Origin: Inonotus obliquus
Taxonomy: Eukaryota; Basidiomycota; Agaricomycetes; Hymenochaetales; Hymenochaetaceae
Direction of reading: 5' to 3'
NCBI GenBank assembly: GCA_032164295.1
Contig: JAJHTX010000002.1
Span: 124,001 to 188,000, forward strand
Length of the DNA stretch: 64,000 nucleotides
The first letter of the stretch is position 1; each line of letters begins with the position of its first letter. A model generated the notes under the pieces. The model saw only the letters and a program-made list of their open reading frames with translations. It did no database searches and was not told where the DNA came from. Both the position numbers and the translations under genes were made by a program. Positions 28,231 through 64,000 of the stretch are shown here, one piece after another.

Positions 28231-28470
28231 CATAATGTTAGACGCTCAAAAATGTTTCCTCATCGATTCCGCCCGACATCCCTCCACATTCAGCATATGG
28301 TGTCAATTCACCAAACCCACGACCTTGGAGAGACGTATCGCCCAGTCCGTAGCTATTTCGCGGACTTTTACATCTCGAGCCGGTCGTATCTCCATCACCC
28401 AGGAGAATTTTGCGCCTCTCCATGAGTCCTTGGTGAGCTTCAGCTTCCTTTCGGCGAATACTGGTTGGTG
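28231..28470 (+). pseudogene. Relic of the small array kinase (tail only)
   Basis: A diverged copy of the last exon of the plus-strand array kinases. It reads GRISITQENFAPLHESL and FSFLSANTG, beside LFLHVSSVAQENFASLRQAL and THSANRE in intact copies. Matching 3' flank follows near 28785-28910 (CGGAGACGTATC.., ACAAGGTTGCCG). It marks an older unit left of unit 1 whose kinase genes are gone. Confidence 0.6.
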
Positions 28471-30136
28471 GTCGCATTCCTTCTTCCATATCTGTATCTG
28501 TTGTTGTTTGTCCAGAACTACTCTGGCCAATTTGGATTACGCCTATGCGAACATTATGACATCTATGGATACATCTTATCTTTTGTGTGTTCCTGTTGGT
28601 ATCCTGTTCACCCAAACGAACTTCTATGAATATTTTCTGATGCCCATCGGCATTAGGTGGGTAATGGATCCCCTAATTTGCTCAGTAAATCAAATTCGTC
28701 TCGTTGGCAATAGGCACACTCGTGGTTAGTTTCTATATGGCTTCATCATGAAACACCTTATTGTTCTGCATCTAGCTGCAAAGCGGAGACGTATCATCCA
28801 TTGTAGTCCACACCTCCGCTAGTCTTACAAGGTTGCCGCAATGAGTTTGTCCACATTTTCAACCGCGAGCCGAATTGTTGCTACGACTAGTCTTTACATG
28901 GATAAATGCCGGTTATCAAGCCTGAGCCAAACGGATCTGTAAAGTACCAATGGCTCAAGACATTATTGTCTAATGCATTTCCTAACGATTTTTGCGTCCG
29001 AGCAAATATACAACGCCGTAGCTAACGAACCATGTGGCTGAGGGTTAGGATTTACACAAGACACGGATAGGCAAGATCGAGATGTTACGATATATTTCGT
29101 TGTTTTGGATTCCCTTCGACAACAGTCATGGCACGCAAGGGCCCGAAAGAGGGGTGGTTAGTCGATGAGGCAATGAAAAATCTCTAATCAGCGAGATTAC
29201 TTCCCTAAACTTGGTATCCTTGTGAAGGCTCTGACAACGAGATTGGTGGGAAGTACCGAACATAACGGAACAGTTATGATTGTTCTTATCTAGCATGTCT
29301 TTGGTCGGAGCGCTTGGACTTTCTGTAAACGTAATGGTACTGGTGGATGTCTATTCGCCATTGTGTTGGCTTGTAGGCGTGTTGCTTATGCAGCATCTTC
29401 GTATCTTGGTCCCCGCCATGCTCCTCCACCATGGCAAACTGTATTTCCTCTGGGATTTCTTTTCAAATCCGCTTCGTTTTCACTAGTCCATTTCTAGCTA
29501 ATCGGGCTTGAACGGTTTTGTTTTAATTGAGCACGTCTTGAGAACACGTTCCGTTCACAAGTTCTACAAGTTTGAATTTTCCCTCCCGGAATGCATAATA
29601 GCGGTGTTTCGGCCACAATAGAGGAGAGATCCACCTTCAGTAACTGTGGGATAATTTGAGCTATTCAAACTTCATCAAGCGGCATTCTGAGCTGAACGAC
29701 CGAGTCGCCCGATGATATTTTCCCCATTGTGGATAAGTCAGACACCTCAAGCATACTGGAAGCTCTTTCGAGGCAACAGGGTAGACGTGGATTTATTCTT
29801 CCCCGGTCTTGATGAAGATTTGGCTTAGCAGCATAGGCTGAAAACGTTTGCACTCTTCGCGAAAAATCGTTCCTAACATGAGAAGGGTGCTGTTCCATGA
29901 TTCTCCCCTTCTATTGCCGTACTGTTGTACGTGCACAATATTGCCGCCATCTCCGATACCGCAGGGGGCCAATTTTTTGTTCGTCTGAGAGTGAACGAGT
30001 GAAAACTCATATTTAGGGTACATCTCTACATTTTCCCTGCGTGCCGCAGGATAGGCAGCAAACTAATTGAAAGATAGTTGTATTAAAGTGAAGTACAATA
30101 AATAATCCTTTCCCTCTACTATCTTGAAGATATCCA
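28471..30136. other. Spacer left of unit 1
   Basis: Array-type spacer. From about 29317 it is nearly the same as 36508 onward. Two overlapping minus frames (29665-29898 and 29793-30023; the latter contains GIGDGGNIVHVQQYGN) are open here and in unit 2 but carry stops in units 3-5. A 68-codon hydrophobic plus frame at 29280-29486 behaves the same way. I take none as a proven gene. Confidence 0.5.
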
Positions 30137-33012
30137 TTACCAATCTCCGAGTGCCTCCCGTTCCCTGAGATCATCTATCTTATCAATTAGTACTTCTGCG
30201 GAAGGCCTTTCTCTCGGATTATATGCGCAAGCCTCCCGAATGAACGAGTAGTGTCCCTTCCGCTTACCAAACACGTCGTCCCGAGCAGGAAGATCTCGTC
30301 GATGTTTAAGCTCTTGGATCGAAAGCCTTTGAGACTCTGCATAGTAATACGGCCTTTTACCGGTTAGCACCTGAGAAGTGATTGCGTATATTAGCTTTCT
30401 GTTTCAAAAGGTGGATATCTTAGAAGGATGAAATGCGAAGTCGTACCTCTACAAAGACGCAGCCAAATGCATAGATGTCTGCGGGTGGTTGGATCTCTTG
30501 ATCTGGTGACTTTATGTACTCCGGAGCGAGCCAACTTTCGTTTGTTTTAATGACAGTGTTGACGAATCGGCTCTCTTGCATATCGGCCACACGGGAGACA
30601 CCGAAATCAGCGAGTGCGACGAACCAATCAGTCCCAGATGCCATTGTCCGAACCAGTACATTCGCCTTTGGATAATGATAATTTATAGAGTAAATAAATG
30701 GCAGGAAGTGACGAGAACAGTCGGGAACGTACCGCTCTGAGATCGCCGTGAACACATTCATTCTTATGAACTACGATGTCCGTCAGTATCTCCGCCTTGC
30801 GTATCAGCGTTTCGAGCGTACCGTGAGAAAGACCCGAAGCGACACGCTTTAGCTGCAGTAATATCTTAGAACAGGGACATACGGAGATGGTATCAAACTA
30901 CACTTACTATACGCAGACGTTGCTCAACGGAAAAGGTATCACTTTTCTTCCAACTAACTAGATCCTTCAAGCTCATCTCATACTCATCGATGACGAGTCC
31001 GGGAAAGGGAAAGTTAGGGATCTCGTAATATCCATGAAGACGAACAACATTGGCGTGTGCACATTTGACAAGACAGTGAGCTTCGCGAATAATACGCTAA
31101 AATGCCATTCAGTCTCATTGCTAAACGCTCAAAGATGGCACTCACGTTCCATGCCCTTCGCGTAAATTCTTCGTCCCCGCGTTTAGCGAATGGGCGTTTA
31201 ACGACATACTATACAGTTGCTGTTATCAGGAGAAATTTAAGCTGACCTCCTTGCTCCTCACCTTTTTCTTGCCATCAACTGAATAATAACGATACACCGC
31301 GGAAAACGAGCCATCACCAATTGGTTCAGGATTCTGTGTAGATAAGAGAACAGGATGCAAGGTTAACTTATGCAGGTCTAGAATATATGTCAGATGGGTC
31401 AACTCGAAAGCAACTGACTATTGCGCGAAACACTGACTGACCTTCCGGTCCTAGATGACTAATCTCAATGGATGACGTATTCGAGGGAGTGGTAGACCGA
31501 GCTTTGGGCTTCTGAATTATACGCCTGAGGCTATCAAGCAAGTTACGCATCCGTATTTCACTATCGAATGTTTCGAGCGGCGCATCTGCCTTGCCCAGCG
31601 CATGATCCTCTGTTAATCATGATATCAGCAAAGGAATTAAGACACGAATGATTCGAAGCCTCACTATCTTCGCTCATATCTGCAACTTTCGTTGTGTTCG
31701 GTGACTCCTGCTTAAGTTGCTCATCAGTCTCCTGTTGAGCATTTGTGAGACTCGTTTTTTGCCTTCGTTGAGGGGGTAATTGATTACATTGCATAGCTTC
31801 AGAATTTTATCCATGACGGGCTGAAGCTGAGGAATACTGGACTGGATTGCATTCTCTGTTCCCTTGAGCACTTTTGACATTGCAAAAGTGGCTCTGCATT
31901 TTTGAATAGTCATGAGTTATAGAACGCACGTGGAAAGGAAAGCTTACACTGAGACATGCATGAATATGGAGGAGATCAGAAGTTCGTGACTCGGATGGGT
32001 GCTGAGGAGTTCGATAAGTTTTATAGTCGCAGTCCTCAAATCCTCCTCCAGTTTTTGTAAGTGCTCATGATTCTCAAAATCCTTGCCCTGAAAGCACAAT
32101 ATCAATGAAATAGGACACTTTTCGGATAGCGACATACCTCAAGATCATTCACACTGTCCATTATGCTCACAACCTTGAGGCACAGACTCTTTAGATCTTC
32201 CCAGACTAAAGAAACTTACAAGCGAAGTGAGTAAGCGATTGAGAACAAGCTACTAATTTTACCTTCGCTGGGTGAGCTGTCTCCATACCACCATGCATTG
32301 AAGTCGGATTCAGTCAGCTGAAGTAATTGATAGACATCATTTCTAGGGCAAAGAGTGTCCAAGCCTTCGGATTATCAGAAACGTGTATTTGATTGTAGAA
32401 GGGTGTATTCACCGCTTGAAAGGTTCCATACGCTCCTTCGTGATGCAAGACATGATAGACTAGTGTTTCCGTCGAATCTAATTTTGAAGGCCACTTCACC
32501 GCATGTGCCGGAGCGTGTCCTTGCGTTGTTCGTTGCCTGGAGAAGCAGCAAGTAAAAGGAAGAGATTTGAGTATAGGAAAAAATAAAGCATACCCTGACG
32601 TCCTTTCTGAGTGTGCTTATCTGCCACATAAGCTTATCCAGACGTGATGATAGCTCTCCGATATCTATGGTCTTGCTTGCAGGAAAGATTCCAAGTAATC
32701 TCCATCTTGATAACGTGACTGCATCTGATGTATCCCGTTTAATTCTGGATCGAAGCATAAGACGCATGCAAGAGAAGACTGTAAACTTGCGCACAGCTCT
32801 TGCCGCTCCGAGATATCCAGCGTACGTTCATCTTTGGTGTCAGGGTTTTCGTCGAGAGTAACTCCTTTCGCCTGCATGATGATAGAGTGTAACTCGTCTT
32901 GTTCGCTCTTGACCTTCAACATCTGGACGCTTTCAGATGAATAGAAGCATCCGCATACCATGTCAATACTGACCTTATTCCGGACTCTAAGCCTTTCAAG
33001 TACAACCTCCAT
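30137..33012 (-). CDS. Array large kinase, unit 1, 660 aa
   Basis: Protein kinase with a long N-terminal region. Seventeen exons: 32974-33012, 32795-32922, 32594-32744, 32413-32536, 32263-32364, 32138-32205, 31948-32087, 31788-31893, 31665-31731, 31442-31609, 31262-31377, 31146-31208, 30908-31096, 30822-30852, 30733-30770, 30447-30665 and 30137-30370. Kinase features: glycine loop GDGSFSAVY (385-393), Lys 407 in YVVKRP, catalytic loop VHGDLRAANV (Asp 507, Asn 512; HGD for HRD), DFG at 530-532, APE at 557-559, DIYAFG, and a C-lobe that ends in RERPSAEVLIDKIDDL. All catalytic residues are there. Residues 1-380 look mostly helical (for example LSSRLDKLMWQISTLRKDV and LQKLEEDLRTATIKLIELL) and match no family I know. 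The 51-nt intron 30771-30821 is a multiple of three and open, so retained transcripts would still read through. Confidence 0.88.
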
Positions 33013-33351
33013 TTTAGAGGGTAAGTAGGAGAACCTAACGACGAGACCAGCGGTGAGAGAAGCTTGTGAATACTAGGCTGTATGGCGCAGTCCTTTTCGA
33101 ACATTATATAGTAAAGTAGCATGACAACGGCTAGGATGCAGAAGGTCATGTGTTTATTGTCTTTGTCTTTGCACAGAACAAAGGGAGGCAATGAATTTCA
33201 AAAACGGCGGACTCGGAAGCAAAAAGTAAAATCCTGTTTCCACGTTTCAATTTGTCCATCATTCACGTGTTCATTACGTATGCATGTACTCCCTGAGGGA
33301 CACCGTGACGCTGGTGACCAACAGACGCGCCTTGTTCCCTTTATTCACGAC
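33013..33351. promoter_or_regulatory. Shared divergent promoter, unit 1
   Basis: 339 bp between the two start codons. A TATATA box at 33105-33110 (about 95 nt before the large-kinase ATG) and a CACGTG palindrome at 33264-33269 followed by TTCATTACGT are found at matching places in every unit. CACGTG is the classic bHLH site; which factor binds here is unknown. Confidence 0.6.
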
Positions 33352-34723
33352 ATGTCCCAACCTGCCGAGTCTATCTCACCCAAGGACACGGAGAATCCTG
33401 GGGCATATCGTCTAACGGGATTGGAGGAAAAGCTTTACGGTCTGAATAGCCCCGAAATTACATGGCGAAACAGGCAAGATCTTCTTGAGTCTCATGGATA
33501 TATTCTGCGGCCAAGATTTCGTCGCGGCTGGACTCCATCATGGAAAGTACCAGGCCAGGAAAAGCCCCCAGTGCACGCAGAGGATTCCTTTCAACATTGG
33601 GTAACTTATTGTTTGTTCTCAGAACTTCGTCCGTCTCATTCTGATTTAGAACAGACGCACGATTGACGCCATTCGCCAGAACGACGGCCTACGTGTTTGT
33701 CTTAAAATCGTTGGTGCAAACGGCCGCGAGCAGAGGATAACGAGAATGCTTAGCTCGGAGGGGGGCTTGAAAGATCCAAGAAATCATTGCGTTCCCATTC
33801 TCGATTTTTTCGTTGCCGATGTTGACGGATATCTTGTCATGCCGCTGTTGAAGGAGTTCGATGAGCCGCCGTTTTTGAGTGTAGACGAGGTTCTAGATTT
33901 CATACAGCAGACATTGGAAGTGAGTACCATCTCAATATGTTTAGTGAGTCCCCGTGACCTTTGCCCTTGCAGGGTCTCTCATTCATACACAGTCAAGGTA
34001 TAGCACACAGGTTCGTTATTGCCCAGGTTTCTTCTCCAATTATTCTTATTGCAACCCACAGAGATTGTACGAACACCAATATCATGATGGATGCCACGGA
34101 AATGTATCCTCGTGGATTCCATCCAACCTATCCATTTTACACTGCCGACGGAACTGAAAGAACAAATCCTCGTTGTCGAAGAGACGTCTCCGTACGATAT
34201 TATTTCACGGATTTTGGCATCGCTGTGGAGCGCAAGGATCCCAACTCGTCTAAACTTGTCACTGGAATCAATGGACAGGATCAAGAGTTACCGGAGCTTT
34301 CTAGAACAGTGCCGTACGACCCATTTGCTGCAGACGTATTCATCTTGGGGAATCTGTACCAGAAGGCCCTTGTAATGGTAAGCATGACTTTCACATGATC
34401 ATTAGAGATATGAGACTCATCACTCTCCATCTCAGAAATATACAAATTTGTCATTTCTTTCTCCATTGATAGAAGCCATGACTCGGAAAGACGCAAAAGC
34501 TAGACCGACGATTGACGAAGCGATCAAGATGTATGAAGACATACTCGCCGGTCAGCGGAGTCAAATATTACGCCGAAGGCTAATACCTGCCAGTGATGGA
34601 AGACTCAAGCGCTTGTTTCTCCATGTTAGCAGTGTTGCCCAGGAGAATTTCGCGAGTCTACGACAAGCTCTCAGTGAATTCCGCCTACCCCTAAGGCGGA
34701 CCCATTCGGCGAATAGAGAATGA
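33352..34723 (+). CDS. Array small kinase, unit 1, 386 aa
   Basis: Atypical kinase of a type widespread in Agaricomycetes. Five exons: 33352-33600, 33650-33919, 33973-34010, 34062-34377 and 34436-34723. No glycine-rich loop is seen before Lys 102 (RVCLKIV); instead an N-terminal block WRNRQDLLESHGYILRPRF and RGWTPSWKVPGQE precedes it. The catalytic loop is AHRDCTNTNIMMD (Asp 187, Asn 192), followed by a long insert rich in P/T/R, then YFTDFGIAV (Asp 236). APE is missing (RTVPYDP stands there) but DVFILGN keeps the D..G of the F helix. Activity is possible but not assured. Exon 5 (DEAIKMYEDILAGQR...THSANRE) is specific to the array. Confidence 0.88.
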
Positions 34724-37311: not shown

Positions 37312-40195
37312 TTACCAATCTCCGAGTGCCTCCCGTTCCCTGAGGTCATCTATCTTATCAATCAGTACTTCTGCGGAAGGCCTTTCCCTCGGATTATATG
37401 CGCAAGCCTCCCGAATGAACGAGTAGTGTCCCTTCCGCTTACCAAACACGTCGTCCCGAGCAGGAAGATCTCGTCGATGTTTAAGCTCTTGGATCGAAAG
37501 CCTTTGAGACTCTGCATAGTAATACGGCCTTTTACCGGTTAGCACCTGAGAAGTGATTGCGTATATTAGCTTTCTGTTTCAAAAGGTGGATATCTTAGAA
37601 GGATGAAATGCGAAGTCGTACCTCTACAAAGACGCAGCCAAATGCATAGATGTCTGCGGGTGGTTGGATCTCTTGATCTGGTGACTTTATGTACTCCGGA
37701 GCGAGCCAACTTTCGTTTGTTTTAATGACAGTGTTGACGAATCGGCTCTCTTGCATATCGGCCACACGGGAGACACCGAAATCAGCGAGTGCGACGAACC
37801 AATCAGTCCCAGATGCCATTGTCCGAACCAGTACATTCGCCTTTGGATAATGATAATTTATAGAGTAAATAAATGGCAGGAAGTGACGAGAACGGTCGGG
37901 AACGTACCGCTCTGAGATCGCCGTGAACACATTCATTCTTATGAACTACGATGACCGTCAGTATCTCCGCCTTGCGTATCAGCGTTTCAAGCGTACCGTG
38001 AGAAAGACCCGAAGCGACACGTTTTAGCTGCAGTAATATCTTAGAACAGGGACATACGGAGATGGTATTAAACTACACTTACTATACGTAGACGTTGCTC
38101 AACGGAAAAGGTATCACTTTTCTTCCAACTAATTAGATCCTTCAAGCTCATCTCATACTCATCGATGACGAGCCCGGGAAAGGGAAAGTTAGGGATCTCG
38201 TAATATCCATGAAGACGAACAACATTGGCGTGTGCACATTTGACAAGACAGTGAGCTTCGCGAATAATACGCTGAAATGTCATTCAGTCGCATTGCTAAA
38301 CGCTCAAAGATGGCACTCACGTTCCATGCCCTTCGCGTAAATTCTTCATCCCCGCGTCTAGCGAATGGGCGTTTAACGACATACTATACAGTTGCTGTTA
38401 CCAGGAGAAATTTAAGCTGACTTCCTTGCTCCTCACCTTTTTCTTGCCATCAACTGAATAATAACGATACACCGCGGAAAACGAGCCATCACCAATTGGT
38501 TCAGGATTCTGTGTAGATAAGAGAACAGGATGCAAGGTTAACTTATGCAGGTCTAGAATATATGTCAGATGGGTCAACTCGAAAGCAACTGACTATTGCG
38601 CGAAACAATGACTGACCTTCCAGTCCTAGATGACTAATCTCAATGGATGACGTATTCGAGGGAGTGGTAGACCGAGCTTTGGGCTTCTGAATTATACGCC
38701 TGAGGCCATCAAGCAAGTTACGCATCCGTATTTCACTATCGAATGTTTCGAGCGGCGCATCTGCCTTGCCCAGCGCATGATCCTCTGTTAACCATGATAT
38801 CAGCAAAGGAATTAAGACACGAATGATTCGAAGCCTCACTATCTTCGCTCATATCTGCAACTTTCGTTGTGTTCGGTGACTCCTGCTTAAGTTGCTCATC
38901 AGTCTCCTGTTGAGCATTTGTGAGACTCGTTTTTTGCCTTCGTTGAGGGGGTAATTGATTACATTGCATAGCTTCAGAATTTTATCCATGACGGGCTGAA
39001 GCTGAGGAATACTGGACTGGATTGCATTCTCTGTTCCCTCGAGCGCTTTCGACATTGCAAAAGTGGCTCTGTATTTTTGAATAGTCATGAGTTATAGAAC
39101 GCACGTGGAAAGGAAAGCTTACACTGAGACATGCATGAATATGGAGGAGATCAGAAGTTCGTGACTCGGATGGGTGCTGAGGAGTTCGATAAGTTTTATC
39201 GTCGCAGTCCTCAAATCCTCCTCCAGTTTTTGTAAGTGCTCATGATTCTCAAAATCCTTGTCCTGAAAGCACAATATCAATGAAATGGGACACTTTTCGG
39301 ATAGCTACATACCTCAAGATCATTCACACTGTCCATTATGCTCACAACCTTGAGGCACAGACTCTTTAGATCTTCCCAGACTAAAGAAACTTACAAACGA
39401 AGTGAGTAAGCGATTGAGAACAAGCTACTAATTTTACCTTCGCTGGGTGAGCTGTCTCCATACCACCATGCATTGAAGTCGGATTCGGACAGCTTAAGTT
39501 CTTGATAAGTATCATTTCTAGGACATAGAATGTCCAAGCCTTCAGTTTATCGGAACATGTAACTGGTTCTAGAAGGTCGTACCCATCGCTAGAAAGAATC
39601 CATACACTCATTCGTGATGAAAGGCGCGACAGACTACTTCCATCGTCGAATTTAGTCTTAAAGGCCACATCGCCGCATATGCCGGATTTTGTCCTTGCGT
39701 TATTCGTTGCCTGGAGATTCAATGAGAAAAAGGAAGAAAATCGAGCAGAGGAAAAAGTAAAGCATACCTTGACATCACTTCTGAGGATGTTTATCTGCCG
39801 CAGAAGTCCATCCAAGAGCGATGACAGCTCCCCGATATCAATGGTCTTGCTTGCAGGAAATATTCTGAATAACTTCCAACTTGAAGTTGATACTGCGACT
39901 GAAGCATCCCGGTATATCCCCTCAATCCTGGAGAAGAACATAAGGCAACTGCAAAAGAAATTTGAAAGCTGGCGTACAGATCTTGCCGCCTCAAAATATC
40001 CTCCGTACGTTCATCTTCGGTGTCGGGGCTTTCGTCAAGTGTCACTCCTTTAGCCTTCGTGATGATCGAGTATAAGTCATCACGTTCCTTCTTGACATTC
40101 AACATCTGGATGCTTTCTGATGAGTAGGAGCGCTGGTATACCGTGTGAATACTAACCTTGGTCCGTACACTTATTCCTGCAAGTACGGTAGTCAT
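37312..40195 (-). CDS. Array large kinase, unit 2
   Basis: Same design as the unit 1 copy and almost identical to it from the stop codon to about 39460 (offset 7175), covering the kinase domain and the middle region. The first five exons differ: exon 1 reads MTTVLAGISVRTK and exon 3 starts IEGIYRDASVAVSTSSWK. The donor of intron 4 is changed: the normal SSG|GTGA is SSD followed by GGGTACG. Using GTACGA at about 39585 as donor puts the usual acceptor out of frame, but an acceptor further on (CCTAG before AAATGAT, about 39520) restores it at a cost of seven codons. So the gene may be intact with a small deletion, or damaged. The kinase residues are all present. Confidence 0.8.
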
Positions 40196-40511
40196 TGCTT
40201 AGAGGGAGTGCCTAACGACGAGACCAGCGGCGAGAGACTTGGATGCTTGCTAATACTAGGCTGTATGTCGTTTTGAGCATTATATACTGAAGTTGCATGA
40301 GGCCATGCGTGTCATATCTATTGTCTTTGCCCAGAACAAAGGGAAGCAAGGAATTTCAAAAAGAAAAGAAAAACGGAAGCAGAAGTAAACTCCCCGTCGC
40401 CACGTTTCAGGTCTTCCATCATTCACGTGTTCATTACGTGTGGATCACGCACGGCATGACTGGGGACACGCTGATGACCGATAGTCGCGTCTGTTCCTCT
40501 CCATTCCCTCC
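40196..40511. promoter_or_regulatory. Shared divergent promoter, unit 2
   Basis: 316 bp. TATATA at 40281-40286 and CACGTG at 40424-40429, the latter followed by TTCATTACGTG. Its sequence differs clearly from unit 1 although both flanks are near-identical. Confidence 0.6.
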
Positions 40512-41883
40512 ATGTCCCAACCTGCTGATCCCACCTCTCCCAAAGATACAGTAATCCCTGAGATATACCGTCTAACAGGACCAGAGGAAAAACTTTACAG
40601 CCTGAATAACCCCGAAATTGCATGGCGAGACAGGCAAGATCTTCTTGAGTCTCATGGATATATTCTGCGTCCAAGATTTCGTCGTGATTGGATCCCATCA
40701 TGGAAAGTACCGGGCCAGGAGAGGCACCCAGTGCGCGCAGAAGACTCTATTCAACATTGGGTAACTCAGCGTTTGTTCCCGGCACTTCGTTTGTCTCATT
40801 CTGATTTAGAACAGACGCACGATTGACGCCATTCGCCAGAACGACGGCCTACGTGTTTGTCTAAAAATCGTTGGTGCAAACGGCCGCGAGCAGAGGATAA
40901 CGAGAATGCTTAGCTCGGAGGGGGGCTTGAAAGATCCAAGAAATCATTGCGTTCCCATTCTCGATTTTTTCGTTGCCGATGTTGACGGATATCTTGTCAT
41001 GCCGTTGTTGAAGGAATTCGATGAGCCGCCGTTTTTGAGTGTAGACGAGGTTCTAGATTTCATACAGCAGACATTGGAAGTGAGTACCATCTCAATATGT
41101 TTAGTGAGTCCCCGTGACCTTTGCCCTTACAGGGTCTCTCATTCATACACAGTCAAGGTATAGCACACAGGTTCGTTATTGCCCAGGTTTCTTCTCCAAT
41201 TATTCTTATTGCAACCCACAGAGATTGTACGAACACCAATATCATGATGGATGCCACGGAAATGTATCCTCGTGGATTCCATCCAACCTATCCATTTTAC
41301 ACTGCCGACGGAACTGAAAGAACAAATCCTCGTTGTCGAAGAGACGTCTCCGTACGATATTATTTCACGGATTTTGGCATCGCTGTGGAGCGCAAGGATC
41401 CCAACTCGTCTAAACTTGTCACTGGAATCAATGGACAGGATCAAGAGTTACCGGAGCTTTCTAGAACAGTGCCGTACGACCCATTTGCTGCAGACGTATT
41501 CATCTTGGGGAATCTGTACCAGAAGGCCCTTGTAATGGTAAGCATGACTTTCACATGATCATTAGAGATATGAGACTCATCACTCTCCATCTCAGAAATA
41601 TACAAATTTGTCATTTCTTTCTCCATTGATAGAAGCCATGACTCGGAAAGACGCAAAAGCTAGACCGACGATTGACGAAGCGATCAAGATGTATGAAGAC
41701 ATACTCGCCGGTCAGCGGAGTCAAATATTACGCCGAAGGCTAATACCTGCCAGTGATGGAAGACTCAAGCGCTTGTTTCTCCATGTTAGCAGTGTTGCCC
41801 AGGAGAATTTCGCGAGTCTACGACAAGCTCTCAGTGAATTCCGCCTACCCCTAAGGCGGACCCATTCGGCGAATAGAGAATGA
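40512..41883 (+). CDS. Array small kinase, unit 2, 386 aa
   Basis: Exons 40512-40760, 40810-41079, 41133-41170, 41222-41537 and 41596-41883, each the same length as in unit 1. From exon 2 on it differs from unit 1 by only a few bases, while exon 1 differs at many codons (EIYRLTGPEEKLYSLNNPE, RRDWIPSWKVPGQERHPV). The catalytic loop and DFG are unchanged. This is the clearest case of the identical-flank, variable-core pattern in the array. Confidence 0.88.
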
Positions 41884-47305: not shown

Positions 47306-47630
47306 TGCTTAAAGAGCGACCAAGAGTATTAAGCGACGAGACCAGCGTCGATAAGGACAAAAAAGATATGCTTGAGAAATATAGGCAGCACAGCAGTCCC
47401 CTTGAGATATTATATAGTAAACCTTCATGACAACGCCCGGGGTGGATGAGAGTATGTGTTGGTTGTCTTCGCCCAGAACAAGGGAGAGAATTTCAAAAAC
47501 GGAAGCAAAAGAAAATACCAGTCGCCGCGTTGCAGTTTTCCCATCATTCACGTGTTCATTACGTATCTACGCACGCCGAGGATGCGCTGATGACCGACCG
47601 AGAGATGCGTCTGTTCCTCTCGTTCACAAC
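47306..47630. promoter_or_regulatory. Shared divergent promoter, unit 3
   Basis: 325 bp. TATATA at 47411-47416 and CACGTG at 47549-47554 with TTCATTACGT after it, in the same order and spacing class as the other units. Confidence 0.6.
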
Positions 47631-48996
47631 ATGTCCCAACCTGCTGATGCCACATCTCCAAAAGACACAGAGGATCCTGAGATATACCGTCTGACGGGAT
47701 TGGAAGAAAGGCTTTATGGCCTAAACAAACGCGAAATTGCATGGCGAGACAGGCAAGATCTTCTGGAGTCTCATGGATTTGTTCTTCGGCCAAGATTTCG
47801 TCGCGGCTGGGTTCCCTCGTGGAAAGTACCAGGCCAGGAGAAGCACCCAGTACATGCAGAGGACTCCATTCAACATTGGGTAACTCAGTGTTTGTTATCG
47901 GAACTTCGTTCGTCTAATTTCTACTTAGAAGGACCGTACAATTGACGCCGTGCGGCTGAGCGACGGTCAACGAGTCTATCTCAAAATCGTCCGTGCAGAC
48001 GGCTTCGAGCAGAGGCTAACGAGAATGCTCAGCCCGGAAGGCGACTTGAAAGATCCAAGGAATCATTGCGTTCCCATTCTCGATTTTTTTGTCGAGGGTA
48101 TTGATGGATATCTCGTCATGCCGGTGCTGAAGAAATTCAACGAGCCGCCGTTTTTGACCGTGGACGAGGTTGTAGACTTCATACATCAGACATTGGAAGT
48201 AAGACACGCTTCAATATGTCTAGTGAGACCTTTATTCGACCTCTCTTGCAGGGCCTATCATTCATACACAGTCAAGGCATAGCACACAGGTTTGTTATCT
48301 ACAGGCTTCTCCTCCAATTGGTCTGAATTCCACCTAAAGAGATTGTACGAACACCAATATCATGATGGATGCCACGGAAATGTATCCTCATGGATTTCAT
48401 CCAACTTATCCAATTTACACCGCTGATGGAATTGAACGAGCAAAGCCTCGTTGTCGAAGGGACGTTTCCGTTCGGTACTATTTCGCGGACTTTGGCATCG
48501 CTGTGGAATTCAAGGGTCCGGACTCGTCTAAACTTGTCACTGGAGTCAACGGACAGGATCAAGAGCTTCCAGAGCTTTCGCTAACAGTGCCCTACGACCC
48601 ACTTGCTGCAGACGTTTTCATATTGGGGAATCTGTATCGGAGGGCTCTTATAACGGTGCACACTGTTTTATCGTGATAATTTCAAGTACTCATCACTTTA
48701 CATGTCAGAAATATACAAATTTATCGTTTCTGTCTCCATTGACAGAGGCTATGACTCGGAAAGATGCAAAAGTTAGGCCAACGATTGACGAAGCGACCAA
48801 GATGTATGAAGACATACTCGCCGGTCAGCGGAGTCAAATTCTACGCCGAAGGCTAATACCTGCTAGCGATGGAATAATCAAGCGCTTGTTTCTCCATGTC
48901 AGCTGTGTTGCCCAGGAGAATTTCGCGACTCTGCGACAAGCTCTCAGTGAATTCCGCATACCCCTGAGGCGGACCCATTCGGCGAATAGAGAATGA
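47631..48996 (+). CDS. Array small kinase, unit 3, 386 aa
   Basis: Exons 47631-47879, 47929-48198, 48252-48289, 48340-48655 and 48709-48996, again equal in length to unit 1. Lys motif VYLKIVRADGFEQRL, catalytic loop AHRDCTNTNIMMD, and ADFGIAVEF. Exon 1 reads GLEERLYGLNKREIAWRDRQ. Differences from unit 1 are spread over the whole gene, which sets its age well before the unit 1/2 split. Confidence 0.87.
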
Positions 48997-51957: not shown

Positions 51958-54831
51958 TCAATCGCCGAGTGTCTCCCGCTCCCTGAGGTCATCTATCATC
52001 TTGATTAGTACCTCTGCGGAAGGCCTTTCTCTCGGATCTCTCGGGCTATATGCGCAGGCCTCCCGAATGAATGAGTAGTATCTCTTCCGCTTACCAAATG
52101 CGTTGTCCCGAGCAGGAAGATCTCCTCGACGTTTAAGCTCATGGACTGACAGCCTCTGAGAATCTGCATAGTAAAATGGCTTTTTGTCCGCTAGCACCTG
52201 AAAAGTGATTGTACATGTCAGCTTTTCGTTTCAACTGGCAGATATCTTAGAACGAGGGAAGACGAAGTCGCACCTCTAGGAAGACGCAACCAAATGCATA
52301 GATGTCCGCAGGTGGTTGGATCTCTTGGCCTGGTGATGTAAAGTACTCCGGAGCGAGCCAATAATCGTTTGTTTTATGGACAGTATTGACGGATCGGCTC
52401 TCCTGCATATCGGCCACGCAGGAGACACCGAAATCAGCGAGTGCGACGAACCAATCAGTCCCAGATGTCTTTGTCCGGACTAGTACATTTGCCTTTGGAG
52501 TATTCATAGAGTGAGCAAATGCCTATAAGCGGGAAAAAGAGCCTGGAACGTACTGCTCTGAGATCTCCGTGAACACATTTATTCTTATGGACTACGATAT
52601 TCGTCAGTATCCACGTCTAGCGTTCAGCGTTCCAAGCGTACCGTGAGAAAGGCCCGAAGCGACATGTTTCAGCTACGGTAGCAAATGAGAACAGGGATAT
52701 ATGAAGATAGTATTCAGCCACACATACGATACGAAGTCGTTGTTGAACGGAAATGGTATTCCCCTTATTTCTAATCAGCTTCTCCAAGCTCGTCTCATAC
52801 TCATCCATGACAAGCCCAGGAAAGGGGAAGTCAGGGATCTCGTAATACCCGTGAAGACGAACAACATTGCTGTGTGAACATTTGACAAGACATTCAGCTT
52901 CACGAATAATGCGCTGAATGCCAATCAGTCAATCTGCTAAATGCTCGAAGTTGGAGCTCACGTTCCACGCCCGTCGCGTAAATTCTTCGTCTTCATCTTC
53001 ATGTCTAGCGAATGTTCTCTTAACGGCATACTACACAGACACTGTCAGCAGCGGTTTTCAAGCTGACTTCCTTTGCTCCTCACCGTTTTCTCGCCATCAA
53101 CTGAACTGTAACGATACACCGCGGAAAACGCGCCCTTACCAAGTTGCGGAGGGTTCTGTGTGGATAAGGGAACGGGATGCAAGTCTAGTTTGTGCAGGTC
53201 TAGAATGCAATGTCAAACAGGTCAACCAAAAAATCGTCGCGTGAAATACCGGCTGACCCTCCAATCCTAGGGGCCTAATCTCAATGGATGGCGGACTCAA
53301 GCTAGTGGTAGTTATAGCTTTCGGCCTCTGAATTATGCGTTTAAGACTATCAAACATGCTCCGAATTTGGGCTTCACTATCGAAAGTTTCGAACAGCGCG
53401 CTTGCAATGCCCAGGGACTGATCTCCTATAGATTGAGAGTTTGGCAGAGATGATTAGCAATATCATGCAAAGTGAGTGAAAGGCTCACTATCTATGGCCA
53501 TATCTCCACTGATCGTTGCATACGGTGACTCCTGCTTAAGCTGCTCCTCAGTTGCCTGTTGGGTATCAGTGAGCCTCGTTTTCGTCTTCATTGAGAATTA
53601 ATTACTTTGCATAGCTTCAGAACTTTATCTGTGATTGGCTGAAGCAAGGGAATACTGGACTGAATGTTATCCTCTGTTCCCGGAGCGACTTTCGATATTG
53701 CGAAAGTGGCTCTATGATTATGATCAGTTATGCGATATGGAGCGGAATAGAAAAGAAAAGCTTACAATGAGACGTGTATGAATATAGAGGAGAGAAAGAC
53801 GTCTTGGCTTGGATACATAATGAGAAGATCGACAAGAGCTTTTGTCGCTATCTTCACATCCTCTACCAGTTTTTGTAAGGGCTCATGCACCGGGATTTCC
53901 TGGGCCTGAGGGGAGGCGTAAGTAAAGTAAGGCGTTTCCAAACTCCCACCCACATCAAGTTCGGCCACCCTGTCTTTTAATTTCACAATCCTGATGCATA
54001 GTCTCTTCAGATCTTCCAGGACCAAAGAAACTTATAGTCGAAGTGAGCAAAACGACGAAGAGCAAGTCATTGTTCCTACCTTCTCTGGGCGAGCTGTCTC
54101 CATACCACCATGCGTTGAAGTCCGATTCAGTCAACTGAAGTGTCTCATAGACGTCATCCCTAGGGTTAAGCTCCTCTAGGCCTTCGGTTTATCAGATTAA
54201 ATGTTGTCAGCTATCGAGGTTCGTGCTCACCGCTTGAAATACTCCATACGCTCATTCGTGATGAAAGACGTGACAGGTCGCTGTTATCGCTAAAATTATT
54301 CCTAAAAGCCAGAACACCGACTATATCAAGTCCTTCCCTCGCATCCGATGTTATCTGAAGAAGCAGAGAAGCGATGTAGTAAGATATTCGGGTATAGGGA
54401 AGAATACAGCATACTGTTATTTCGCTCGTGAGAGTGCCTATCAGCCGCAGTATAACATCCAAGATTGATGATAGATCTTCCACGTTGATGGTCTTGCTTG
54501 CGGGGAAGATTCTAAATAACCTCCATGTTGCTGTCGCTTTCAAAACCTGTTGGTACAGCTCCTCAATCCTGAAGAAAGGCCTTAGATTGTATATAAGGGA
54601 AAACGAGAAATTGAGTACCGCTGTTGTCGTTCATAAGTATTTCGTGAACGCTCGTCCTCGGTGTCTGAGTTTTCGTCGAGAGTTTTGCCTCTTGCCTTCG
54701 TGATGCGCCTGTTTAGTGCGGCACGTTGCTCCTTGACATAATTCATCTGGATATGATGAGTATAAGCATAAGAAAGCCCGACTGATGCGAACCTTTTCCC
54801 TGACATTTAGCCCTTCATGTGCATTATCCAT
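51958..54831 (-). CDS. Array large kinase, unit 4
   Basis: Start MDNAHEGLNVREK, nearly the same as unit 5. Middle region HEPLQKLVEDVKIATKALVDLL. Kinase features: LGKGAFS loop, YAVKRT lysine, VHGDLRAANVL, ADFGVSC, LAPEYF. The C-lobe has a small insertion (YSPRDPRERPS) and the protein ends LRERETLGD. Without an intron at about 52587-52636 the frame would break just before the catalytic loop; the 50-nt GT-AG intron there restores GLSHVHKNKCVHGD and shows that the same intron is real in the other units, where it can be read through. Its start faces the 831 bp insertion in the promoter. Confidence 0.84.
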
Positions 54832-56027
54832 TGCTAAAACGGCAAGCAAGAATGTGTAACGACGAGACCAGCGTCGGCAAAGGGAAGAGGAGCTCTCGAA
54901 TACTAGTTGGCAGCACGGTGCAGTGCCTTTCGAGCATTATATAGCAAGCGTGCATGGCAACGACTGAGATCGCACGAGGTGATACGTTGTATCTATTGTC
55001 TTTGCCCAGAACAAAGGGAAGCGAAGCTGCGAAAGAATTTCAAAAAACGGAAGCAAAAGTAAATTTCCATTGAGTCGCCGCGTTTGGGCTTGTCCATCAC
55101 TCACGTGTTCATTACGTGTTTGTGCGCACACGACTGTGATTGGTGCCTGGCACGGCCTTTAAAAAATCCGTGCCACTTTTTCCCGGGCGGAGTTTCAAAT
55201 ACTTTCCATTTATAGCAACTCGCGTCGATCTTCATGTCCCACTTTCCGGTCCCCCACTAAATCCCTTGAATATGTAGTTCCACATAATTTGAGTTATTTG
55301 TCCCTTCCTTTCAACATGAAAAGGCTTGGAATAACTATCTGATGTGAAATATACCAAATCCGAATCGATTGTAGGTGATATCCAGGCAGAATATACATAA
55401 CTGTTTTCACTTATGTGTCACGTGATCTTATTTTGGCTTTTTTGCACGACCATATCTTCCTCTGAAAACACTTATAAAACTCCTTTAAAACTGCTTGGAC
55501 ATGATGTATGTGTGTATTAGGGTGGTTCTGTCAACTATATGCGAAAAAAATCGACATACTGGTGGAGAGATTAGCATATACAGTAGACACAGCAGCATAT
55601 ATGCTTCCTAGCTCAATGAATTCAGGATTTCTTGTCATATTTCTTTCAGATATATAAATCTTAACGAAAAATAAAGATTTTGTTAAAAAAAAATTCTTAA
55701 GAAGTGTCATAGTTATTTATATATGTGTCAAAAATCGCCGTATCTTGGAATCTGTTGGACAGTTTTTGTAATTTTTCTTACCACCTTGTTCAGAGTGTTG
55801 AAAAATAATTTTTGGACATTTTTTCAGATTTTTTGTAAAGTTGTGGAAGGGAGGACGGGCCCTCGAATCTCAAAACAAAAAGTGGAACAGGTGAATCCGT
55901 GTCGATCGCCGCTTAGCCATGGAAGGGACCGTGGGAATGTCACGGAAATTACATAGGCCGTGCCAGGTACCACTGTGATGGGGATGAGCGAGGGACGCTT
56001 CAATTCCTCTCATTCCTCATTCACGAC
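54832..56027. promoter_or_regulatory. Shared divergent promoter, unit 4, interrupted by a transposon
   Basis: 1196 bp, of which 839 are the insertion and one target copy; without these it would be 357 bp, close to the others. TATATA at 54938-54943 and CACGTG at 55102-55107 stay on the large-kinase side of the insertion, so the small kinase now lies about 0.9 kb from the CACGTG box. Confidence 0.6.
55141..55971. mobile_element. 831 bp non-autonomous transposon-like insertion in the unit 4 promoter
   Basis: Flanked by the 8 bp repeat ACTGTGAT (55133-55140 and 55972-55979). The ends are inverted: GGTGCCTGGCACGGCC on the left and the complement of GGTACCTGGCACGGCC on the right, one mismatch. The other four units lack it and show the empty site. 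The inside is AT-rich, unlike its surroundings, with no transposase; one 77-codon frame (55723-55956) has no motif. The 8 bp duplication fits hAT, although the end sequence differs from the element at 23531. Confidence 0.85.
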
Positions 56028-57392
56028 ATGTCCCGACCTTATAATTCCGCCACTCCAAAAAGCACAAAAAGCACTAGGATGCGCAGCTTGGCAGAGCTGG
56101 GGGATGAGTTATGCGCCCTAAACGAGCACGAAATTACATGGCGGGATAGGCAAGATCTTCTGGAATCTCACGACTACGTTTTGCGTCCAAGATTTCGTCG
56201 TGGTTGGACTCCATCATGGAAAGTTCCAGGGCAGGAAAAGTCCCCCTGGGGGGTGGAGGACTTCTGTGAACATCGGGTAACTCAGTGTTTGTCATTGAAG
56301 CTTCCATCATCTTATTACTATTTAGCACAGTCGTACAATCGACGCCATTCGCAAGAGTGACAGTCGACGGGTCTATCTCAAAATCGTCCGCGCAGATGGC
56401 TTCGAGCAGAGGCTAACGAGGATGCTTAGCTCGGAGGGTGAGCTGAAAGACCCAAGGAATCACTGTGTTCCCATTCTCGATTTCTTCGTCGACGGTGTTG
56501 ATGGATATCTTGTCATGCCGCTGTTGAAGGTCTTCGATCAGCCGCCGTTTTTGACGGTAGACGAGGTTCTGGACTTCGTACACCAGACATTGGAAGTGAG
56601 TGCCGTGTATATGACAAGTGAATCTCCCTTCGACCTTATTCCATACAGGGCCTCTCATTCATACACAGTCATGGCATAGCACACAGGTTTGTCACTTGCG
56701 GGTTTCTCCTCCATTCGGTCTAATTGTAATTAAAGAGACTGTACGAACTTCAATATCTTGATGGATGCCACGGAACTGTACCCTCGTGGTTTTCATCCAG
56801 CCAATCCATTTCGTACTTCCGATTGGGATGAAAGAACACAACCTCGTTGTCGAAAAGATGTCTCCGTTCGATATTATTTCACGGACTTCGGCATCTCTGT
56901 GGAACCCAAAGATCTGGATCCGTCTGGTCTGGTTACTGGAGTCTACGGACAGGATCAGGAGTTACCAGAGCTTTCGAAAACAGTGCCATACAATCCATTT
57001 GCTGCAGACGTATTCATATTAGGGAACCTGTACCGGAGAGCTCTTAAAATGGTGTGCATTGCTTTGCTGTGCCTGTTTGACTTGCTCAGTTCTTTCTATC
57101 CCAGAAATACACAAATATTTCGTTTCTTTCTCCATTGATTGAAGCCATGACTCGGAAAGACGCAAAGACCAGGCCGACGATTGACGAAGCGATCAAGATG
57201 TATGAGGACATACTCGCCGGTCAACGGAGTCAAACTTTATGCCGAAGGCTGATACCTGCCAGCGATGGAAGACTCAAACGCCTGTTTCTCCATGTTAGCT
57301 GTGTTGCCCAGGAGAATTTCGCGAGTCTGCGACAAGCGCTCAGTGAATTCCGCCTACCTCTGAGGCGGACCCATTCGGCGAATAGAGAATGA
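56028..57392 (+). CDS. Array small kinase, unit 4, 386 aa
   Basis: Exons 56028-56276, 56326-56595, 56649-56686, 56736-57051 and 57105-57392, the same five lengths. The N-terminus has the longer polar type shared with unit 5 (KSTKSTRMRSLAELGDELC). Lys motif VYLKIVRADGFEQRL; catalytic loop AHRDCTNFNILMD (Phe and Leu where units 1-3 have Thr and Met), FTDFGISVEP. Exon 1 ends EHR where the others end QHW. Open throughout despite the promoter insertion. Confidence 0.87.
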
Positions 57393-60140: not shown

Positions 60141-63019
60141 TTACCAATCTTCGAGTGTCTCCCGTTCCCTGAGGTTATCTATCCTCTCGATTAGTACTTT
60201 TGCAGGAGGTCGTTCCCCCGGGTTATATGCGCAAACCTCCCGAATGAACGAGTAGTGTCCCTTCCGCTTACCAAACGCGTCATCCCGAGCAGGAAGATAT
60301 CGTCGACCTTTAAGCTGATGGACTGACAGCCTACGAGAATCTGCATAGTAATATGGTTTTCTATCGGCAAGCACCTTAGAAGCGATTGCGTGTATTAGCT
60401 TTCTGTTTTAATGGCCGGATAATTTAGAGGGAGTAAATACAAGTCGCACCTCTAGAAAGACGCAGCCAAATGCATAGATGTCTGCGGGTGGTTGGATCTC
60501 TTGGCCTGGTGATGTAAAGTACTCCGGAGCGAGCCAATAATCGTTTGTTTTGTGGATAGTGTTGATGGACAGGCTCTCCTGCATATCGGCCACGCAGGAG
60601 ACACCGAAATCAGCGAGTGCGACGAACCAATCAGTCCCAGAAGCTTTTGTCCGAACGAGTACGTTCGCCTTTGGATTGTTTATTGGGTAAGTAAATGGTA
60701 GCAAGTGATAAAAACAGTCGGGAACCTACCGCTCTGAGATCGCCATGAATACACCCCTTCTCATGAACTACGGTATTCGTCAGTATCTGAGTCTCTGCAC
60801 TGCACACCAGCATTTTAAGCGCACCGTGTGAAAGGCCCGAGGCGACCTGATTTAGCTACGGTAATAATGAGAATAGAGTATATGGAGATGGTATTCAGCT
60901 ACACTTACGATACGAAGACGTTGCTGGACGGACATGGTATCCCCTTTATTTCGAACCAGTTTCTCCAAGCTTGTCTCGTACTCATCCATAACAAGCCCAG
61001 GAAAGGGACAGTTGGGGATCTCGTAATACCCGAGAAGACGAACAACATTGCTGTGCGAACATTTTACAAGACATTCAGCTTCACGAATAATGCGCTGAAT
61101 GCCAATCAGTCAATCTGTTAAGTGTTCGACGATGGCGCTCACATTCCATGCCCGTCGCGTAAATTCTTCGCCAATGTCGCCATGTCTAACTAATGGCATT
61201 TTTACGGCATACTGCAAAAATACTGTCATCAGGAGGAATTTCAAGTTGACTTCCTTTGTTCCTCACCGTTTTCTCACCATCAACCGAACTGTAACGATAC
61301 ACCGCGGAAAACGCCCCTTCACCGAGTCTTCGGGGATTTTGTGTAGACAAAGGAACGGGGTGTAGGTCTAGCTTGAGCAGGTCTGGAGTGCATGTCAGAT
61401 AGGCAAACCAAGTAACTAATTGCCGCCGGAAGGCATACCTTCCAGTCCTAGAGGCTTTGCTTCAATGAACGGCTTACTCAAGCGAGCACTAGGCTGAGCT
61501 TTGGGCCTCTGAATTATGCGTTTGAGACTATCAAACAAGCTTTGCACTTGGGATTCACTGTTGAAAGCTTCCGACAGCGCGCTTGCAATACCCAGGGTTT
61601 TATCTTCTGCTGATAGACAGTTCGGTAGAGCTGATTAGCTATGACACACAAATTATTAAAGACTCACTATCTATGACCACATTTCCATTGATCATTGTAT
61701 CTGGTGACTCCTGCTTCAGCTGCTCCTTGGTAGCCTGTTGTGTATTGGTGAGTCTTATTTTCGTCTTTGTTGAGGGGAAACTATTTACGTTGCATAGCGT
61801 CAGAACTTTATCCGAGATAGGCTGAAGCAAAGGGATGTTGGACTGAAAGGCATCCTCCGTTCCCAGGGCAACTTTCGATGTTGCAAAAGTGGCTCTAGAT
61901 TTTTTGATCAGTCATGCGGACATAGGACGTCATATGAAAAGAGCCCACAGTAAGATGTGCGTGAATATAGAGGACAAGAATACTTCTTGACTTGGATGTT
62001 GAATAAGGAGATCGACGAGAATTATCGTCGCTTCCTTGAGAACCTCTACTAGCTTTTGTAAAGGCTCATGCACCGGGTTTTTCTTCGTCTGAAGGCATGA
62101 TGTGAGCAAAGTAATGCATTTCTCAACGCTCACTTACTTCGAGTTCAACAACCTTATCTTTTATTTTTACGATCCTGATGCATAGTCTCTTCAGATCATC
62201 CAAGACCAAAGATTCTTTTAGCTGAAGTAAGTAAAGTGATAAAGGGGAAGCTGCTTTTCATACCTTCTCTGGGCAAGCTGCGACCGTACCACCATGCGTT
62301 GAAGTCCGATTCGGTCAGCTGGAGTGATTGATAGACGTCATCCCTGGTGCTAAGCTCATCCAGGCCTTCGATTTATCAGTACGTATTACTGGTTGTCGAG
62401 GTTCGTGCTCACCGCTTGAAAGGCTCCATACACTCATTCGTGATGAAAGACGCGACAAATCTCTGTCATCGCTGAAGTTATTCCTAAAAGCCAGAACACC
62501 GACTTTATCAAGTCCTTCCCTCGCGTTCGTTGTCGCCTGAAGAAGTAGCGAGGTCGGCGATAAGGTGCTCAAATATATAAGGAAGAACATAGCATACCGT
62601 CATGCCCATTTTCAGCTCGATTATAAACCCCAATAGTTCATCTAAGAGTGATGATAGGTCCTCGACTCTGATCTTCTTGCTGGTGGGAAAGATTCTGAGC
62701 AACCTCCAGGTTGTCATCGCAATCATAGCACGGCGGTATAGCTCCTCGATACTGGACAAAGGTATAAGCTCCATGCAAGGAGAAATAGTTGAGCTACACA
62801 CTATTCGTTTCGGTTCAAAACTTTACGCGTGCGTTCATCCTCGGTGTCTGGGTTTTCGTCGAGAGTCTTGCCTATCGCCTTCGTGATGCTCCTGTTTAGT
62901 GCAGCACGTTGCTCCTTGACCAGGTTCATCTGGTTACTTTATGATGAGTATAAGCATCAGAAAGCCCGACTGATGCGAACCTTTTCCCTGACATTTAGAC
63001 CTTCATGTGCATTATCCAT
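60141..63019 (-). CDS. Array large kinase, unit 5
   Basis: Start MDNAHEGLNVREK. Exon 3 starts IEELYRRAMIAMTTW; the middle region has HEPLQKLVEVLKEATIILVDLL. Kinase features: YYADSRRLSVHQLKGRR in the C-lobe, VHGDLR replaced by IHGDLR (Ile for Val), DFGVSC, LAPEYF. The intron after GLSH is 57 nt here and the next donor is GTAGGT. The protein ends LRERETLEDW. No frame break found in the exons checked. Confidence 0.83.
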
Positions 63020-63348
63020 TGCTTAAATGGCGAGCAAGAATGTGTAACGACGAGACCAGCGTCGGCAAAGGGAAGAGGGGCTCTCGAATACTAGGCAGCA
63101 CGGTGCAGTGCCCTTCGAGCATTATATGGCAAGCGTGCTTGGCAACGACTGAGAACGCACGAGGTGATGCGTTGTATCTATTGTCTTTGCCCAGAACAAA
63201 GGGAAGCGAAAGAATTTCAAAAAAACGGAAGCAAAAGGCAAAAGTAAATAAATTCCTTTCTCCATCACTCACGTGTTCATTACGTGTTCGTGCACACAAC
63301 TGGGGATGGGGATGAGCGAGAGACGCTTCAATTCCTCTCATTCACGAC
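63020..63348. promoter_or_regulatory. Shared divergent promoter, unit 5
   Basis: 329 bp. TATATG at 63123-63128 (weakened TATA) and CACGTG at 63270-63275 with TTCATTACGTG after it. It shows the empty site for the unit 4 insertion (ACTGGGGATGGGGATGAGCG near 63300-63318). Confidence 0.6.
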
Positions 63349-64000
63349 ATGTCCCAACCTCATAATCCCGCCGCTCCAAAAAGCACAAAAAGCACCAGGA
63401 CACGCAGCTTGGCAGAGTTAGGGGATGCGTTATGCACCCTAAACGAGCACGAAATTACATGGCGAGATAGGCAAGATCTTCTGGAATCTCACGGCTACGT
63501 TTTGCGTCCAAGATTTCGTCGCGGTTGGACTCCATCATGGAAGGTTCCAGGGCAGGAAAAGTTCCCCTGGGGGGTAGAGGACTCCCGCCAACACTGGGTA
63601 AGTCAGTGTTTGTTGTCGGAGCTTTGACCATCTCATCACTATTTAGCACAGTAGTACAATCGACGCTATTCGTCAGAGTGATGGTCTACGAGTTTACCTC
63701 AAAATTGTCCCCGCAGATGGCTTCGAGGAGAGGCTGACGAGGATGCTTAGCTCTGAGGGTGAGCTGAAAGACCCAAGGAATCACTGTGTTCCCATTCTCG
63801 ATTTCTTCGTCGACGGTGTTGATGGATATCTTGTCATGCCGCTGTTGAAGGGCTTCGATTCGCCGCGGTTTTTGACCGTGGACGAGGTTTTGGACTTCAT
63901 ACATCAGACATTAGAAGTAAGTACCGCTTCAATATGTCTAGTGAAATCCCGTTGGACATTCTCTTTTGCAGGGCCTCTCATTCATACACAGTCAAGGCAT
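63349..64000 (+). CDS. Array small kinase, unit 5, 5' part (cut by window end)
   Basis: Exons 1 and 2 (63349-63597, 63647-63916) and the start of exon 3 (63972 on) are seen; the catalytic loop and DFG lie outside. N-terminus KSTKSTRTRSLAELGDALC as in unit 4, then WRDRQDLLESHGYVLRPRF. Lys motif VYLKIVPADGFEERL. Open as far as it can be read. Confidence 0.83.

Follow-up and report, generated by a model that had tools for sequence, protein, structure and literature searches.

The stretch of Inonotus obliquus DNA considered here, hereafter the window, comprises 64,000 nucleotides at positions 124,001 to 188,000 of contig JAJHTX010000002.1 (C2; the labels C3 and C13 likewise denote contigs) in a 36 Mb genome of 30 contigs. 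It carries five divergent gene pairs, U1 to U5, each consisting of a large kinase gene on the reverse strand and a small kinase gene on the forward strand. This head-to-head arrangement, claimed in an earlier note on the same DNA, is borne out by spliced gene models, which were obtained with two purpose-written programs, a gene finder based on codons and splice sites and an aligner that fits proteins to DNA across introns (Table 1). Comparison of the window with itself resolves five tandem units of 7-8 kb each; U1 and U2 share 91% DNA identity over 6.8 kb, and the remaining pairings 70-81% over long stretches. The pairs in the window are segmental duplications of one unit and the five are not independent, so that conservation within the window is what copying would be expected to leave. 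Alternatively, U1 and U2 may be two alleles that the assembly wrongly placed in tandem. The array extends rightwards as far as C2:267 kb and there includes a further four pairs, one copy of the small gene alone and a 3' fragment of a large gene (C2:238.7-239.2 kb), in the order U6, U7, other sequence, then U8, U9 and the small-only U10. A further pair is located on C13, ~4 kb from the contig end; the distance of the main array from the start of C2 does not exceed 270 kb.

The internal organisation of both genes is strongly retained, in agreement with the conservation of introns and exon lengths that had been claimed from the window. Seventeen coding exons make up the large gene in 10/10 copies on C2 and C13, with typical lengths of 39, 128, 154, 124, 102, 59/77, 134/140, 106 and 67 bases for exons 1-9 and of 168, 116, 63/69, 186-189, 31, 38, 219 and 228 bases for exons 10-17, the few exceptions including U3 in exon 4 (154) and U6 in exon 5 (84). 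No stop was found in these large genes, and single frameshifts were called in U2, U3 and C13, which may be artefacts of the splice models or, in U3, may reflect a damaged acceptor. The small gene is divided into five exons of ~249, 270, 38, 316 and 285 bases in 11/11 copies on C2 and C13, all of them open; the first exon of U6 and U10 was modelled as two pieces, and the models of U6-U10 and C13 have no ATG at the aligned end and an in-frame ATG downstream.

The two genes of a pair are separated by a short shared intergenic region. The gap between model ends is 339 bp in U1, 316 in U2, 325 in U3, 1196 in U4 and 329 in U5; it is 202-339 bp in nine of the ten pairs on C2 and C13 and ~257-306 bp in the pairs on C3, the ATG-to-ATG gaps of U6-U9 and C13 being somewhat larger than their model-end values of 202-300 bp. 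The 1.2 kb gap of U4 is explained by an insert of ~0.83 kb that splits the shared promoter, and no second copy of this insert was found in the stretches compared. When the ten intergenic regions are aligned, several blocks recur, namely a TATA-like element CATTATATAG, the block GAATTTCAAAA, and a CACGTG motif that precedes TTCATTACGT or a close variant of it; this motif is present in 9/10 regions and is missing from U6.

In the large protein, a variable N-terminal region of ~360-390 aa precedes a kinase domain (Pfam Pkinase, 5e-38) that retains the lysine, an HGDLRAAN loop and DFG. On this sequence the large protein is apparently an active kinase of the non-RD type. The catalytic loop reads DLRAAN in the ten C2 and C13 copies, and DLRPHN, DLRPAN and DLRAAS on C3, the last coming from an uncertain splice model. 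Profile comparison of the N-terminal region produced no convincing match in PDB, where the best E was 0.71, or in Pfam, where the best E, reached by one of eight members, was 0.0094. A word-limited protein search with residues 1-385, of a kind that misses relatives sharing few 5-residue words, returned no match at E<=1 among 7995 candidates. The search with the whole large protein recovered 28 kinases, whose matches cover 30-36% of the query and none of which is clearly related to the whole protein; the query used for the Pfam, protein and first genome searches contained one unspliced intron (18 extra residues).

The small kinase lacks the glycine loop, as had been noted from the window, since its Pfam kinase match begins at profile position 15, past that loop. 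It retains the lysine, HRD..N and DFG, with DFD instead in U6 (C2:194.7-196.2 kb) and U9 (C2:262.6-264.0 kb); both of these copies are still paired, and the substitution may leave them catalytically impaired. Of the 299 homologues that the protein search found at E<=1e-3, 120 were listed, and the closest in identity among the matches listed is the Fomitiporia protein P0030 (61%). Proteins of Sanghuangporus and Coniferiporia are likewise among the closest homologues listed, and small kinases of Coniferiporia bear alternating locus tags on a single contig (M0805_002645, 002647, 002649). A structure model of P0030, which is N-terminally shorter, was built from an alignment of 90 of the 120 listed homologues and reached a predicted local distance difference test (pLDDT) value of 96, its best PDB matches being protein kinases at a template-modelling (TM) score of ~0.5. 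By sequence and by fold, the small gene is a plain member of a family of small 'kinase-like domain-containing' proteins of Agaricomycetes, the class to which the species named among the homologues presumably all belong. In the literature searched, which included few subscription journals, nothing mentions a divergent large-kinase partner of this small family, and a scan of viral contigs with the small kinase gave no match. Two homologues, P0029 of Pilatotrama ljubarskyi and P0048 of Mycena filopes, each read as two small kinases in a row within one chain, which represents either a gene-model fusion or a real double kinase.

Across the genome the pairing is asymmetric. The counts given here are lower bounds, as only the best-scoring candidate sites were scored; weak matches to ordinary kinases, for instance on C1, C5-C9, C11 and C12 and at C2:0.86-2.7 Mb, were left uncounted. 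At least 13 full-length large genes are present (nine on C2, one on C13 and three on C3), and all 13 have a divergent small neighbour. The small kinase occurs at no fewer than 28 sites (10 on C2, one on C13 and 17 on C3), a number that excludes the relic at 27.6 kb of the window, and 15 of these, 14 on C3 (with sol210 and sol816 included) plus U10 on C2, have no large partner. The statement of the earlier note that neither gene is ever found without the other thus stands for the full-length large genes found and fails for small ones. Partnership is also associated with the integrity of the small gene, since paired copies are free of lesions in 13/13 cases and single copies in 4/15 (Fisher p = 7e-5). 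The comparison restricted to C3, where 3/3 paired and 3/14 single genes are lesion-free (Fisher p = 0.03), is the fairer one because one lineage accounts for 10 of the 13 pairs. When the alignment was repeated with a common C3 query and with frameshifts and stops forbidden, the score fell in none of nine paired genes (the three on C3, U1, U3, U5, U7, U9 and C13) and in 10 of 13 C3 singles; only the U4 query was used for the paired small genes of U2, U4, U6 and U8, and sol210, a fragment, was scored in one of the lesion runs only. The lesion-free singles, one of them truncated, are U10, sol227b, sol840 (to query residue 321 of 358) and sol826 (only to 273); the last showed one frameshift in one run and none in another, which gives a stricter count of 3/15.

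The three pairs on C3 are deeply diverged from those of the array. Their large kinases share 34-43% identity with that of U4 and their paired small kinases 45-49%, and the kinase-part exon series 168/116/69/186/31 of the C2 large genes recurs as 166/116/69 or 54/186/31 in C3A and C3B. This series was found for C3B in an unguided model as well and is less clear for C3C, whose large model was fitted to the C2 query in the exon, identity and profile comparisons, so that its profile score is inflated. The N-terminal regions of the C3 proteins, in models made without the C2 query, were compared with those of six C2 copies; 8/18 comparisons exceeded all 200 shuffles (z 4.9-9.4) and 10/18 stayed within the shuffle range. 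The profile comparison of the C2 regions with C3A and C3B gave a probability of 71%, and an alignment of eight N-terminal regions has an invariant Ala-Phe pair and an invariant Trp-Trp pair. It is likely, not proven, that the N-terminal regions of the C2 and C3 large proteins are homologous. A tree of the small kinases, constructed with 19 of the 120 listed homologues and without sol210 and sol816, joins Fomitiporia P0030 to the C2 and C13 copies (split support 100) and places Fomitiporia P0037 (92) and Sanghuangporus P0031 (99-100) among the C3 lineages. On this placement the two lineages split before the genera did, and the pairing would be as old as this split if it is ancestral. Among the C2 and C13 copies, the splits (U1,U2), (U6,U9,C13) and, except in the kinase part of the large gene, (U1,U2,U3) are common to the large and small trees; within the trio U6, U9 and C13 the trees of different segments disagree, with conflicting splits supported at 86-98.

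The most diverged part of both genes is, on average, one block around the shared promoter. The pattern is best seen between U1 and U2, where the differences, gaps counted, number 354 in 32231-33640, 34 in 30100-32230 and 4 in 33641-34760, the kinase parts being 97-100% identical and both N-termini and the promoter differing at ~25% of positions. Synonymous divergence between these two copies is ~0.55-0.60 in the block and 0.015-0.04 in the other parts, and the proportion of synonymous differences (pS) is 0.38 in the centre against 0.025 in the kinase flanks. Among all copies, 43/45 pairs show more synonymous divergence in the centre than in the kinase flanks. Mean window identity mostly lies at 0.80-0.89 over the kinase parts and drops to 0.65-0.70 across large exons 2-4 and to 0.69 where the small gene starts.

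Table 1. Features of the window, in window coordinates, with the state of each gene model.
Feature	Position	Strand	Remarks
Diverged kinase opposite decayed small copy	25700..26744	-	61/220 residues identical; HRD changed to HRE, DFG to NFG; Pfam Pkinase
Decayed small-kinase copy left of array	27583..28377	+	5 frameshifts, 1 stop; 90/219 aligned residues identical
U1 large kinase	30143..33012	-	spliced alignment, 17 coding exons, no stop or frameshift; N-terminal region ~360-380 aa; C-terminal end uncertain
U1/U2 divergent block	32312..33632	.	large exons 1-4 and part of 5, promoter, small exon 1, most of intron 1
U1 shared intergenic region	33013..33351	.	339 bp; from alignment of 10 intergenic regions
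U1 small kinase	33352..34723	+	spliced alignment, 5 exons, open, no glycine loop
U2 large kinase	37318..40195	-	one frameshift near exon 4/5 border, possibly splice-model artefact
U2 small kinase	40512..41883	+	open
U3 large kinase	44406..47305	-	one 1-nt shift at exon 16, possibly impaired
U3 small kinase	47631..48996	+	open
U4 large kinase	51961..54831	-	open; source copy of the query
Insert in U4 promoter	55140..55972	.	~0.83 kb, imperfect ~35-bp terminal inverted repeats, resembling a miniature inverted-repeat transposable element
U4 small kinase	56028..57392	+	open
U5 large kinase	60141..63019	-	open
U5 small kinase	63349..64000	+	cut by window end; runs on to ~64713 in window numbering

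To the left of the array, the decayed copy of the small gene aligns with a score of 111 (one control stretch: -49). For the diverged kinase opposite to it, the kinase-domain score is 137 (one control stretch: 1); the full-length query scored 0 there, and nothing similar to the large N-terminal region was detected. The sequence of 25.7-28.4 kb is compatible with an older decayed pair, in which the diverged kinase is the possible large partner. Window positions 58425-60835, comprising spacer sequence as well as the 3' end of the U5 large gene, recur inverted and 97.8% identical at C2:238.5-240.9 kb, where the copy adjoins another spacer fragment (C2:236.7-240.9 kb); this points to a recent rearrangement beyond the array. 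Repeats of 90-94% identity are located at C2:198.9-200.3 and 217.3-219.6 kb (74.9-76.3 and 93.3-95.6 in window numbering), inside and beyond the array, and are possibly a transposable element. Elsewhere in the window, 10.7-22.5 kb contains four related genes with ~65% DNA identity, three on the reverse strand near 11, 13.5 and 16.3 kb and one on the forward strand near 22 kb; a Pfam scan of four reading frames gave no match, and by motif they resemble secreted metalloproteases.

We propose that the pair is an old, co-inherited cassette of two genes, in which a large kinase and a small kinase devoid of the glycine loop are expressed from one short divergent promoter and form a joint functional unit of the recognition type, a reading that we hold with as much belief as doubt. 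Each protein would act upon the other: a variable cue would be received by the N-terminal region of the large kinase, and the small kinase would restrain or license its partner, so that an unpartnered large kinase would not be tolerated; the copies of the array would supply different specificities. The most likely use would be recognition, that is to say the sensing of non-self or of invaders, or incompatibility upon cell fusion. The idea of a functional unit, put forward in the earlier note, is favoured by the divergent layout retained in the C3 pairs, by the open frames of the paired small genes and by the central block of divergence common to both genes, and its premise that neither gene occurs alone proved wrong for the small one. 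The asymmetry itself, with full-length large genes never found alone and small genes often alone, is expected of a large kinase that, lacking its partner, does harm or serves no purpose.

Several observations weigh against this proposition. The 13 pairs amount to about four lineages, as 10 of them are copies of one, and the single small genes U10 and sol227b are fully open, sol840 being nearly so. Calling the N-terminal region of the large kinase a sensor would follow from its position and variability, because the region matches no Pfam or PDB family convincingly. The central excess of divergence is absent in U6-C13 and U9-C13 and small in U6-U9, and U4 and U5 are highly alike at the promoter and in small exon 1. 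Diversifying selection is not supported among these copies, as the mean ratio of non-synonymous to synonymous divergence (dN/dS) is below 1 in every segment; in the large gene, the two N-terminal parts have means of 0.35 and 0.40 and the kinase part one of 0.26. The introns are affected as well, with a mean identity of 0.57-0.70 for introns 1-7 of the large gene against 0.68-0.83 for introns 8-16; part of the divergence pattern is therefore a matter of recombination history and, together with the conflicting segment trees, this indicates that exchange between copies contributes. No specific sign of co-evolution was detected with the Mantel test either, the correlation between both N-termini (r 0.60) being matched by that between the large N-terminus and the small core (0.62).

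A rival reading is a passenger linkage, in which one ancestral pair of neighbours was block-copied repeatedly, long ago, and the two genes have no joint function, the short divergent spacing being merely hard to break in a compact genome. Block copying agrees with the segmental duplication seen in the window and with the main splits common to the large and small trees, and the 17 small sites on C3 make a chance neighbour less unlikely there. The survival of the layout in four lineages, at 34-43% kinase identity to U4, speaks against it, as does the fact that single small genes mostly carry lesions and paired ones do not, since under mere linkage a partner should not predict an open frame; selection on the 5' region of the large gene could, however, shield the frame of its small neighbour. 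On balance we regard linkage without function as rather unlikely. It could also be that the shared promoter simply couples two kinases of one response, with no binding or mutual control. The intergenic blocks that recur between copies, including the TATA-like element and CACGTG in nine of ten, are what such co-regulation would predict, but both U4 genes are open despite the ~0.83 kb insert between them, U6 is devoid of the CACGTG segment, and the hypothesis leaves unexplained why full-length large genes are never seen without the small one; we consider it unlikely. A selfish pair of poison and antidote, in which an unpartnered large kinase is harmful and is neutralised by the small one, and which spreads by drive or by fusion cells, would also produce full-length large genes that are paired in 13/13 cases and small genes that stand alone at 15/28 sites. 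The sole unpaired large sequence found is moreover the 3' fragment without the N-terminal region, and the location of one pair at ~4 kb from the end of C13 and of the main array within 270 kb of the C2 start would suit such an element. The same asymmetry is, however, predicted by a non-selfish sensor that is checked by its partner, and we judge selfish spread to be very improbable.

By analogy, the closest architectural match to the proposed recognition cassette would be the HD1/HD2 mating-type pair (bE/bW, A locus), with which it shares the divergent orientation, the short intergenic region and the repetition of pairs as subloci. In that system the choice between self and non-self resides in highly variable N-termini; here N-termini and promoter vary between paralogues, most clearly between U1 and U2 and with two exceptions among the 45 pairs of copies. 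In Flammulina, polymorphism of the HD pairs is described in both N-terminal portions and in the intergenic region (PMC5100862), and another report assigns the self/non-self domain of basidiomycete HD proteins to the variable N-terminus (PMC2916851). The variation is allelic in HD1/HD2, whereas here it is found between paralogues of one genome. An actual HD1/HD2 pair was rejected, as only kinase families, and no homeodomain, exceed the Pfam cut-off in the one large and one small protein scanned. Paired NLRs of plants, which are rare in fungi, likewise consist of two co-inherited proteins, often under one promoter, with sensor and helper roles; in Sordariales, 13/225 two-NLR clusters are reported in head-to-head orientation (PMC12258605). 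This candidate was rejected too, neither gene having a NACHT, NB-ARC or repeat domain above cut-off. With respect to an executor of the MLKL type, the N-terminal region of the large protein gave no convincing sequence match in Pfam or PDB to the HeLo/MLKL four-helix bundle. Among fungal kinases, FslK is described as a fungi-specific lineage expanded in Agaricomycetes including Fomitiporia, of which 16/241 members carry an additional domain, in which the diagnostic tyrosine-kinase loop residues (AARN) were not found and whose exact functions need experiments (PMC3937382). Compared with that published description, the large kinases of C2 and C13 have a DLRAAN catalytic loop. Membership in FunK1 (PF17667) was rejected, the small protein scoring 10.6 bits against a cut-off of 24.1 and the large protein having no such family among its Pfam matches.

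The cassette would thus work like HD1/HD2 pairs or paired immune receptors, being neither of them. A bolder proposition, which we put forward tentatively and consider rather doubtful, is that the pairs are dedicated, divergently transcribed and undescribed kinase modules for recognition in mushroom fungi, whose specificity would lie in one variable cassette made of the two N-termini and the promoter, with gene conversion homogenising the signalling ends. No description of such kinase pairs was found in the literature searched (few subscription journals). To our knowledge, few of the genes that govern somatic incompatibility and immunity in basidiomycetes have been identified, and no role is known for the kinase expansions of mushrooms; a co-inherited pair with one variable cassette is a concrete and testable candidate. 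The rule that partnered copies stay open and single ones decay could serve to find functional units among uncharacterised kinases. If the proposition of an undescribed module is true, these pairs would be the kinase counterpart of HD1/HD2 loci and paired NLRs, and possibly a system of somatic incompatibility or innate immunity in basidiomycetes.

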